From assembly GCA_964020085.1 (NCBI GenBank), contig OZ026605.1:435701-499700 (forward strand): a stretch of 64,000 nt of DNA, written 5' to 3'. Shown one piece after another: positions 18,255 through 61,897 of the stretch. Positions within the stretch are counted from its first letter, which is position 1, and each line of letters begins with the position of its first letter. Made by a program: the position numbers and the translations under genes. This stretch comes from Micromussa lordhowensis (Eukaryota; Cnidaria; Anthozoa; Scleractinia; Lobophylliidae). The notes beneath the pieces were generated by a model that saw only the letters and a program-made list of their open reading frames with translations, had not been told where the DNA came from and did no database searches.

Positions 18255-21200
18255 ATGGCAAACGACCTCTTACAGGTGAGAGAGATTCTAATTATTATTT
18301 TTTGATTAATTAATGGGCGTTTATATTTCAAGTGTGTTTGAGGATTTTGTTGTTTTAACCAACACGTAAAGGATTATTTAGTGCTGATTGCAAATATTCG
18401 TCGGCCTCGCTTTCACACATACCTAAACACGAATGTAAAGGGTTCAATTCTGTGCAGTTTTATAGCTAAATTTCTCGTAGAAGAGGGGTGAAAATAAGCC
18501 GGTTAAATTACATTACAGATCACTAAGATGGACTTTCATCTTAACATTTTCGCAGCTTTTTGTTCTTCAACTAATTGTTAGCCAGTTACTTTTCAAAAAT
18601 GTTCCATATCAGTTAGAATCATTCCTATATATAATAGCTTTATTGTAATTCTTGTAATGAAAACTAAACATTACTAAAACATAGTTTATGCAATTTCTGT
18701 AAATCGCAAATCTTTACAATAAAACGATAGGACAACTAGAAATTTTCTAGAATTTTTCTAACTGAAAGCTCACTTCTCTATGAAATTTTGCTCTAAATGT
18801 CCCAGCATATTTTAAATTAATAATTGGATGTCATGGTGGTTTCTCATTCGGCAAATGCCATAGACAACAACAGTCCAATATTGCTACCTGCCAGCAGGCG
18901 ATTCAAACTATCAATAAAAAACGATGGTCTTGATCATATATTATAGATTAAGAGAAAGCACTACGGCAACTCAACAACATGCAAACAACAACAGACTTAT
19001 TACAAGAGTTCTGCGTTGTATTTTAACGTACAGGGTTTGTAGTTACCTATCACAATGCTGGCAGCATCAAAATAATAGAGGAATATAACTTAGCTAAAGG
19101 AGGATTATGCAGGATTAAGGTTTAAGAAGGATCCTATATAGAGTATTGCATAACAAACATGATCGATTTTCTAATTCTTACTCAGTGAAATCGAAATTCG
19201 ATTTCAATGATATCAATGTTCAATGTTAAAGTTGTGTCATTCTCAAACACATCAAGATTAATCTGTAATCTCAAACAATATTAACCATTTCATCTGCCAT
19301 TTCAAATCCTTTTTTAGCTTCGCATACGACAGGAAATTATTATTTTCAAGCTTGTAACGGGTATAGTGATTATCGGGGTGTTGACGAAAAGCGGCAACAC
19401 AAAGTCGTTACATAAGAACGTAATGAGCAGGACGAATTCTTAGCACGTGCGTTGTACATTATCTTCGTACATTTACAAGACGTCCTCTATTAAATTACAA
19501 CTTAAACTTCTGGGTGCTACCAAATACCCGATTAAAATTTCTGTTTTTGCTTTATGTTCTTCAATGGATGGGGCAAATCATGGCAAAAAATGCCGTTATC
19601 TGTTTTTATTTGGACATAAATGTATTCTTAACAGATTCAATTATAAGATACATCGAGAAGTAAACTGAATTTAGCCATATATTGTAGTCACGTTTTGGTT
19701 AAATATTAATTCATGCGTTTTAGCCTCAACATTGACGGAACCGTTAATTTTCACAGAACTTCTCCGGAAAGTGACGTTGAACTTCAGATAGATAATAGTC
19801 TGACAAACTTGTCATTGTCAAGCGTGAGTAGAATTTGCTACCTAAGGGCTAGAAAGATAAGGGTGCCCTTTTTAAAAGTTCGCGAATAACGCTTAACGTC
19901 TTTAAGCTTACTACAGTATTTTTCTCTTATGGTATGCCAAGATTTAGTTCAAACATAAATGCATTGACCTGGGTAATTTGGAACATCATCTCGTCTAGTT
20001 TCGTGAGGTATCTCACGTGTTTTGGGGCCGCCCTGACGCCTCGTTTCTGACCCAAACCCACAGTCTGATTGACGACGTCAACATTTCCTCAACCGAAACA
20101 ATTAAATAATTAAAGTAGCGCGCGAACTGTAGCTTTCTTCTCACGTTTAGCACGCAAAAAGAAAATTCGTAGTCACTTCTAAGTGACCGAGTCACTGCCC
20201 CATAACTTAGCTTCGTGTCTAAAGAATAAAACAGCAAAAACAAGCTAATAATTTGGGGAAAACGAAAATAGATAGGGAGAATGAATCTCGTTCACTTTTC
20301 ATCTCTTAAAGATCGCCTCGAGTCATAAATTCATTAAAAGCAGATTTCATTAAAAAGACAACAATCAGTTGGGGCAACTTAAAACAAGCAGGATGTTTCT
20401 TGTTGATTGCGATCTTTGACTGATAGAGAGGGTCAGAAGGTTTTTACATTAAGGAACAAACAACATTAGCAGCTCACCCACGAGTATAGTACATAGATAA
20501 AGAATTGACATGATTTAGCAAGGAGGGGCTGGATATATGTGAGCCCGGTGTGTTTAGTTGCTTGCACTGCGCATGCATGTTTCCTCTTGGGTATCTTTAG
20601 GACCCATACCGACCATTATAGATGGAAATTTCGATAGAGTTGTCGGGTTCCTGTACAAGCCAGAGTTAATGATGATTTTATCACGAGAGACCTTTCCGCC
20701 AAATCGGATCCACCACAATTTGTTATCAATCAGGAACGTCCGCAATGAGAACCTCACGAAATTCGACTTCTTTTTCACGGCAATCGGTTGCCGTGGCCTC
20801 AAATTCGTACTATGTTGCGTCAAATAGCTGCATTTAGTGCGCTTTGTTGGTTGGAGAACCACAGTTCTTTGCAAGCTTTTGTGGCTTTCAATAGCTAGGG
20901 GTTATAGAAAGTGTGTAAAGGACTTACAAAAAGGAAAATGTTAAGGTTGAAAATTTTGATGTGGGGTATTTGAAGTGTACGCATTTTGATCATGTTTCCG
21001 TGAAGTACAGAAAAGCGTGACTGTCGGGCTTTCTTAAACAATTCTGGGGAAGCTGAAGCAAACCACAACGGCAACGGAAAACAGATCCGGATCACCAAAA
21101 AGGGTTAAAAATAAGTATTAAAATGCCTCTGCACGTGTGTAAGAACGTTATATAACGTTTGCCAATTAACAAAGTCACGGCATGGTTCAGTCCCGGTGTA

Positions 21201-60585: not shown

Positions 60586-61897
60586 TTTTTCAATGCACCT
60601 CCCGTGTCTATGATTACATCCGTGGCTTGCTGTTCGACACTCGACTATATGTTTGCGGTCTGTGCCACAGAGTAAAACCTTTCCTGTGAATCTCAAGACG
60701 CAATCGTGGACAAAGCGCGCCATGCGCGCATGCTCGGACAACAAAATCGTGCCGTTCCTCGACCTCGTGTTACTGGAGCGTTCGTCACGGTGTAATGCAT
60801 TCTCCTCCATAATCACGCCACTATTCGCATTGTCGCGATAGGAGATATCCTGTTTCTGTTCCCCCTCGTTGACGACTGGATGTGACGTCATGATACCGAT
60901 TCGGCACAAAAGTAGAATGCTGGCCAATATCTATTTATAAAAACACAGAAATAAACCAATTATTTAATTCAGTTTCAAGGTAAAATTAACACATCGCAAG
61001 GGAGGGGTTGGGCATCCCTCTTTCGTTTTGGGGGGGGAGGGTCTGAGGCTGACACTTTATAGCGTTTAAAACCTCCTCTCGTCGCGTTAATTCTGTATTT
61101 GTCAGCCATTTTTGTGCGGCCGATTCTTTTTAATCAAACATGAAAGTAAAAATTCGAACTCGAAAACTTATCCGAGCTCGTGAGATTAAAGAACACGTGC
61201 CTATACTGTTTTTAAAGACTGCATTTACCACATTTTCCTTTGACCAGAAGACAATCGCCAAATGATAAGTAAAAACAATAAAGAGGTCAAAGGATAGTTC
61301 AATGTGTACGTAAACGTTGTTGGAAACTTGATTCTGTCTAAACTTTTGGGCAAAACCTGAACTTCACGCTAGAAGCCAAACTTTTCAGTTAGTCGAAACT
61401 AATTCCAGTTTTGGCCAATCCAAACAAACAAACGCTCTCTCGCACATGTTAATTCACACGATGAAACAAATTAGCCGGACTTACGCAGTAAAAAAGAAAA
61501 CAACGTAAATAAGTTAAGTATGTCTGTATTATTAATTGATGTATTAGGTTTCGCACATGAAACGCTCTGAGTCTCAATCAAAGCCACTTCAGAGTCGAAA
61601 TTCTCGCTAGGTAAGAGGAACGGCCGAACCGTTTTAAATCGAAATAGCCATTTTTCTAATTGAATCAGATTAGGTTTGACTCATGACAAGTTCGGCATGC
61701 ATCAAAATCGGGGTCTATATGGATAGTCTTGTTACAGATTATAAGATTTGTACCCATCTGTGTAACCAGGGATCGCTTCCTCACTTATTCGTTCAAAATT
61801 AAAACACATAATCTTTTGCGACTTCGACTGAAATTCATATTCTTCTACTGTTTGCAAGAAATTAGTTTCTCACCTTAATATGACAAGACATAGTCAT
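60523..61897 (-). CDS. Secreted 8-cysteine knot protein (knot gene E)
   Basis: Minus strand. Exon 1 is 61897-61874 (M-T-M-S-C-H-I-K, donor AAG|GTGAGA). The second Met at 61891 has the better context (A at -3). Exon 2 is 60930-60523, after a T-rich tract and AAATAG. Phase 0, intron 943 bp, about 141-143 residues. The joined signal peptide reads I-L-A-S-I-L-L-L-C after the junction. A spacer with N-G-T and R-M-A-R leads to C-x10-C-x9-C-x6-C-x6-C-x6-C-x12-C-x-C, ending C-E-C-L. The first half matches the C/D spacing exactly; the second half is rearranged. The 3' end is tandemly amplified downstream. It is the only member of the cluster on the minus strand. Confidence 0.72.

Follow-up and report, generated by a model that had tools for sequence, protein, structure and literature searches.

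Trunk and PTTH are mostly known as products of one or two genes per species, which in insects pattern the ends of the embryo and time moulting. In the part of PMC9071555 drawn on here, Noggin-like proteins, Trunk and PTTH are described as one cystine-knot group, some members of which activate Torso or MAPK signalling and some of which antagonise BMPs; the same part reports that Noggin-like proteins are able to activate receptor tyrosine kinases and that an N-terminal clip domain of Noggin binds BMPs. Trunk in stony corals is already published, the passage on Trunk in PMC6660194 recording it in Stylophora and Orbicella and not in Nematostella. Here, a stretch of 64,000 nucleotides of the coral Micromussa lordhowensis (contig OZ026605.1 of assembly GCA_964020085.1, hereafter C11, positions 435701-499700; "the window") with five small cystine-knot genes, A to E, was analysed together with its flanks, and 580.8 Mb of the genome were searched for relatives. 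We consider it fairly probable that the window covers a part of a large family, dispersed in the genome, that encodes small secreted cystine-knot proteins, ligands or antagonists of the Noggin-like/Trunk/PTTH kind.

The five genes and their two-exon models had been proposed in an earlier note on this DNA. All five starts were found in the sequence (A to D on the plus strand, E on the minus strand), as were the short exon 1, the phase-0 donor, the phase-0 acceptor and exon 2, which encodes a hydrophobic leader followed by a polar spacer and then a Cys-rich domain (Table 1). The predicted models were chosen among sites, other GT and AG sites being present, and give exon 1 a length of 7 codons in A to D and 8 codons in E. 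Exon 1 of gene A lies 4.1 kb from exon 2 and is the one assigned with least confidence, although the 5 kb scanned upstream hold no other candidate of that type. Gene C has two further candidates of the same type within 5 kb, gene E has one unrelated candidate farther upstream, and exon 1 of gene B may be dispensable because exon 2 starts with its own ATG. The domain has seven cysteines in A and eight in B to E, with Cys-x-Cys at most two residues from the stop. In B to E the C2-x9-C3 spacing is exact, as the note had described it, and the alignment shows it also in every one of the 14 members other than A in the fetched region. The basic cleavage-like site attributed to all five is distinct in A, B and D (TKR, DKR and HKRR, respectively) but weak in C (RHSRH) and E (a single R). 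A decayed member said to lie between the genes was rejected: tblastn with 15 members returned nothing below E 0.069 in the window outside its known genes, and three tandem copies of the end of gene E are present instead.

The five genes are real, but the cluster assigned to them runs past both ends of the window. Fetching 100 kb on each side (30 kb of the fetched DNA being N) added ten members of three subfamilies, namely six S1, one S2 (the subfamily of C and D) and three S3 genes, and the whole cluster, which spans about 192 kb (C11:0.328-0.520 Mb), comprises 17 open members and a single fragment. Unrelated genes are interspersed, for example a FAM124-domain gene between A and B (window 36651-37670, plus strand; Pfam E 4e-58). 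The short exon 1 with a phase-0 donor was located for 12 of the 17 open members; the upstream scan gave no convincing one for the S1 gene at -70.9 kb, the divergent member L044b and the three S3 genes (L003:9064-9636, L044 near 2639, L011:8458-8970, L012:4257-4769 and L013:56-568), where it may sit farther upstream.

Protein searches of the genome, with C, S1, the member on C3, A, S3 and B as queries, placed 16 further loci at C11:2.502-2.668 Mb, seven on C1 (1.763-1.842 Mb) and one on C3 (23.08 Mb). The five of these 24 that were read in detail (the C3 member, three of the seven on C1 and one of the 16 on C11) all have a hydrophobic stretch, Cys-x-Cys at or near the stop, and a candidate exon of 5-8 codons with a phase-0 donor upstream (MKLNFCLK, MSTTKA, MDILK). 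The expansion that the note had suspected is therefore far larger than five genes, with 18 + 1 + 7 + 16 loci giving at least about 42, a total that is approximate because the unread matches have E 0.001-0.5 and the counts are lower bounds. Weak matches at C10:30349667, C7:34370475, C3:35770380 and C3:35999914 were read and not counted as members, nor was the one at C10:13476776.

The region has 15 frames of at least 60 amino acids that close with Cys-x-Cys and have seven or more Cys among their last 95 residues (14 family members and one unrelated frame), whereas 20 Markov shuffles gave 0-2 each. A first exon of this kind, 6-8 codons long, was found within 1 kb of random positions in 208 of 3000 trials. 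The ratio of nonsynonymous to synonymous substitution (dN/dS) was calculated by the Nei-Gojobori method for the two testable subfamilies, S1 and S2; A, B and E are without a close copy. Mature domains of both subfamilies are under purifying selection, with dN/dS of 0.21-0.39 among S1 genes (11 divergent pairs) and 0.26-0.52 among S2 genes (three pairs). A young pair of S1 genes reached 0.80, resting on eight changes, and in the remaining three pairs of S1 the changes were too few for a judgement. Values for the S1 pre/pro region were 0.26-1.37. Among L001-L003 (S1, window -95.7 to -75.4 kb), synonymous divergence between two S1 sets is about 0.16-0.22 in the pre/pro region and 0.45-0.60 in the mature region; because it is lower in the former, gene conversion in the first half of S1 exon 2 is hinted at.

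Pairwise alignment scores, compared with Cys-fixed shuffles, link B with C and D (z 5.6) and S3 with B (6.3) and with E (5.4), while S1 scores are weaker (z 0.8-2.3). The domains of C and D are 62% identical, and exon 2 of E resembles the relative at +72.5 kb (tblastn E=7e-6). In a wide profile test one subfamily was left out at a time and scores were set against 2000 shuffles; one of the six S1, two of the three S3 (near-copies) and L044b were omitted, and two C1 copies stood for seven. The best member of seven of the eight subfamilies, B among them, scored above all 2000 shuffles and gene E was equalled by seven, while one of five S1 and two of three S2 members fell within the shuffle scores. 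In a narrower test with 1000 shuffles, B was reached by four and E by one. Judged by these similarities, B to E are homologous and belong to one family. A tree of 19 domains supports S1 (95), S2 (98), S3 (98), S2 with the C3 member (69), S3 with E (79) and S3 with E and L044b (84); its deep nodes are weak (18, 22, 38 and 41).

The place of gene A within this family is the point at which the strongest alternative enters. Under it, B to E and their relatives would be a lineage-specific cystine-knot family, neurotrophin-like, Spaetzle-like or independent, and A a neighbouring but unrelated Trunk gene, with nothing but the general knot in common. No pairwise link joins A to other members (z -0.7 to 1.7), its score in the narrower profile test (1.9 bits) lies below at least five of 1000 shuffles, its placement in the tree has a support of 22, and a genome search with it returned itself and two matches at E about 6, so that it appears to be single-copy. 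Against an unrelated A stand the short exon 1, the phase-0 intron and the Cys-x-Cys at the stop that it has in common with the others, its wide-profile score, which only five of 2000 shuffles equalled or beat, and members elsewhere without C2 and C6, which are intermediate in Cys pattern. We regard this alternative as doubtful and gene A as a plausible founder of the family. The earlier proposal of an expansion starting from a Trunk/PTTH-type gene is nevertheless unproven, the link of A to B to E being weak.

The fold comparison rests on an AlphaFold2 model of the gene D domain (predicted local distance difference test score 77.9; strands 4-13, 18-27, 42-51 and 54-64), the model of gene A being unusable. 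All 50 structural matches listed for it are IL-17, NGF or PTTH, with modest scores and weak Z; the resemblance to PTTH chain 5aoq_L is weak. Judged by this model, the domain most likely has the fold of a cystine-knot growth factor with four strands, of the Noggin-like/Trunk/PTTH kind. The knot would be formed by C1, C3, C4, C5 and C7-x-C8, presumably as C1-C5, C3-C7 and C4-C8, a pairing modelled on that of PTTH; B to E and many relatives have C2 and C6 as well. The model places C2 (residue 15) within the turn of the first hairpin and C6 (residue 56) beside that of the second, where an extra C2-C6 bridge may join the two hairpin tips; DAN-type factors have a bridge between the tips of the knot hairpins. 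Among nine subfamilies, A left out, both cysteines are present in five (S1, S2, S3, B and E), both are absent in three (the C1 array, L043 and L044b), and C2 without C6 occurs in the C3 member (Fisher p 0.048, with coding by eye, kinship ignored and the C6 of gene E at another position). Because C2 is absent in three related subfamilies it probably stands outside the knot ring, and a reading of C2-x9-C3 as part of a neurotrophin-type ring was set aside, both C2 and C6 being absent there. The grouping of L044b, which is without C2 and C6, with S3 and E speaks against a single origin of the bridge.

Two further alternatives concern what the proteins do. The expanded members could be venom or defensive peptides on a cystine-knot scaffold, for which their tandem copies and divergence, their mature domains, which are small, basic and rich in Cys (computed net charge of seven of them, +3 to +11), and the pre/pro dN/dS of up to 1.37 in a young pair can be cited. 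We hold this unlikely: the S1 and S2 mature domains are conserved save in the one young pair, and the structural matches listed are all cytokines or hormones. Coral SCRiPs are likewise small secreted preproproteins, nearly all with a proprotein cleavage site and several per species according to the text excerpted from PMC2652719, but the motif given there (Cx6-7Cx4-6CPx3-6Cx4-6Cx5-6CCC) ends in CCC, whereas the domains here end in Cys-x-Cys with other spacing, and membership in that family was rejected. The proteins could also be secreted factors of an immune or self/non-self kind that duplication has diversified and that are used like IL-17 or Spaetzle. The Z of the structural matches is weak, no diversifying selection was found in the S1 and S2 mature domains, and the Pfam search, covering for A to E mainly matches at E 0.1 or below, listed no IL-17 for A to E or the 14 aligned members and no Spaetzle for A to E; this reading is less probable still. 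The cysteine layout of IL-17 differs from that of these domains. That the reading frames arose by chance or are dead is highly improbable given their excess over the shuffles, the purifying selection and a gene anatomy recurring across members, even though the S2 copy at +68.1 kb is without C7 and a single S1 copy is fragmentary.

In the favoured reading, that of secreted ligands or antagonists, most members that were read would encode a precursor with a phase-0 intron 5-8 codons into its signal peptide, then a polar pro-region that often closes with a basic site. Its C-terminal domain, of about 60-86 residues, has Cys-x-Cys at the end or close to it. We infer secretion, from the hydrophobic leader (hydrophobicity was computed for A to D and four S1 genes), together with cleavage, the disulfide pattern, dimerisation and signalling: removal of the leader and cleavage at the basic site, where present, would release a stable, disulfide-linked and probably dimeric protein, which would most likely act extracellularly as a ligand or antagonist. 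Gene A is a probable Trunk/PTTH-type ligand, and as a guess a Torso-like receptor kinase can be named as its candidate receptor. B to E and about 36 other loci may be paralogues of gene A amplified by tandem duplication. More tentatively, a single Noggin-like/Trunk-type gene may have given rise to about 42 genes at four loci, many with an added C2-C6 bridge gained or lost repeatedly, producing a ligand repertoire larger than any Trunk/PTTH set known to us and possibly matched by receptor diversification. If true, such a large expansion outside arthropods would show what this ligand class does there, and the members would be natural variants for how a knot chooses its partner, between kinase activation and BMP antagonism; it would also raise the question, open to test, of whether Torso-like receptors have expanded too.

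Table 1. Positions of the family members in and around the window. Plain ranges are window positions; distances in kb are relative to the window.
Feature	Position	Strand	Remarks
Gene A exon 1	18255..18275	+	MANDLLQ; donor CAG|GTGAGA, phase 0
Gene A exon 2	22404..22961	+	leader, spacer with TKR, 7-Cys Trunk/Noggin-type domain, stop
Gene A cystine-knot domain	22701..22958	+	C-x22-C-x4-C-x6-C-x16-C-x26-C-x-C
Gene B exon 1	45065..45085	+	MLRFLVY; donor TAT|GTAAGT
Gene B exon 2	46030..46419	+	leader, DKR site, 8-Cys domain, stop
Gene B cystine-knot domain	46219..46416	+	
Gene C exon 1	51881..51901	+	MYNTVLK; donor AAG|GTAAGG
Gene C exon 2	52578..53015	+	leader, spacer, 8-Cys domain, stop
Gene C cystine-knot domain	52818..53012	+	
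Gene D exon 1	57511..57531	+	METIFFK; donor AAA|GTAAGT
Gene D exon 2	58237..58671	+	leader, HKRR site, 8-Cys domain, stop
Gene D cystine-knot domain	58474..58668	+	modelled from 58471
Gene E exon 1	61874..61897	-	MTMSCHIK; donor AAG|GTGAGA
Gene E exon 2	60523..60930	-	leader, spacer, 8-Cys domain, stop
Gene E cystine-knot domain	60526..60708	-	
Gene E, last 64 bp: three extra copies in tandem	60040..60425	-	161-bp period; include C-terminal codons
S1 genes (n=6)	-95.7 to -70.4 kb		one type
S2 relative of C and D	about +68.1 kb		C7 lost
S3 genes (n=3)	about +72.5, +78.3, +84.1 kb		mature domains identical
Intact S1 gene	C11:333.7 kb		
Decayed S1 fragment	C11:332.7 kb		outside the window
L044b	C11:328.3 kb		divergent member

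Two other features lie at the start of the window, both on the plus strand. An open frame of 1305 amino acids at -968 to 2946, the window part of which had no Pfam match at E 0.01, appears to be the principal exon of a gene for a voltage-gated potassium channel. Fragments at 5423-6084, with no Pfam match at E 0.01 in 5701-6084, resemble the end of the reverse transcriptase of a LINE-type (long interspersed nuclear element) retrotransposon.

Among described families, gene A weakly resembles Noggin (PF05806), with which it has C-x22-C and a W..LG..F.PR stretch in common; it scores below the Pfam cut-off (E=0.0021, 18.4 bits against a curated 24.1, best over profile positions 132-182 of 211), and B to E gave no match to this family in the Pfam search. 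Together with PTTH chain 5aoq_L (E=0.37, ranked under unrelated chance matches), this lends weak support to the earlier Trunk/PTTH-type reading of gene A. The family profile search does not reach PTTH, and its structure-profile matches (cellophane-induced protein 1 and two cytosine deaminases, E 0.1-0.9; nothing else matched) were taken as chance. Neurotrophins (NGF, PF00243) had no match listed for A to E in the Pfam search, a genome search for them returned nothing, as did its control, and C2 of the C-x9-C pair is missing from three related subfamilies. A precursor, probably secreted to judge by its hydrophobic leader, with a C-terminal Cys-rich cystine-knot domain ending in Cys-x-Cys is common to Trunk, PTTH and A to E, from which B to E differ in having C2 and C6 and shorter loops. 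The statement that no cluster like this one had been described stands within the open-licence PMC literature, where no comparable cluster or expansion was found; most subscription journals lie outside that search. For Trunk itself, the passage in PMC6660194 gives one accession in Stylophora and two in Orbicella, against about 42 loci of the present family in M. lordhowensis.
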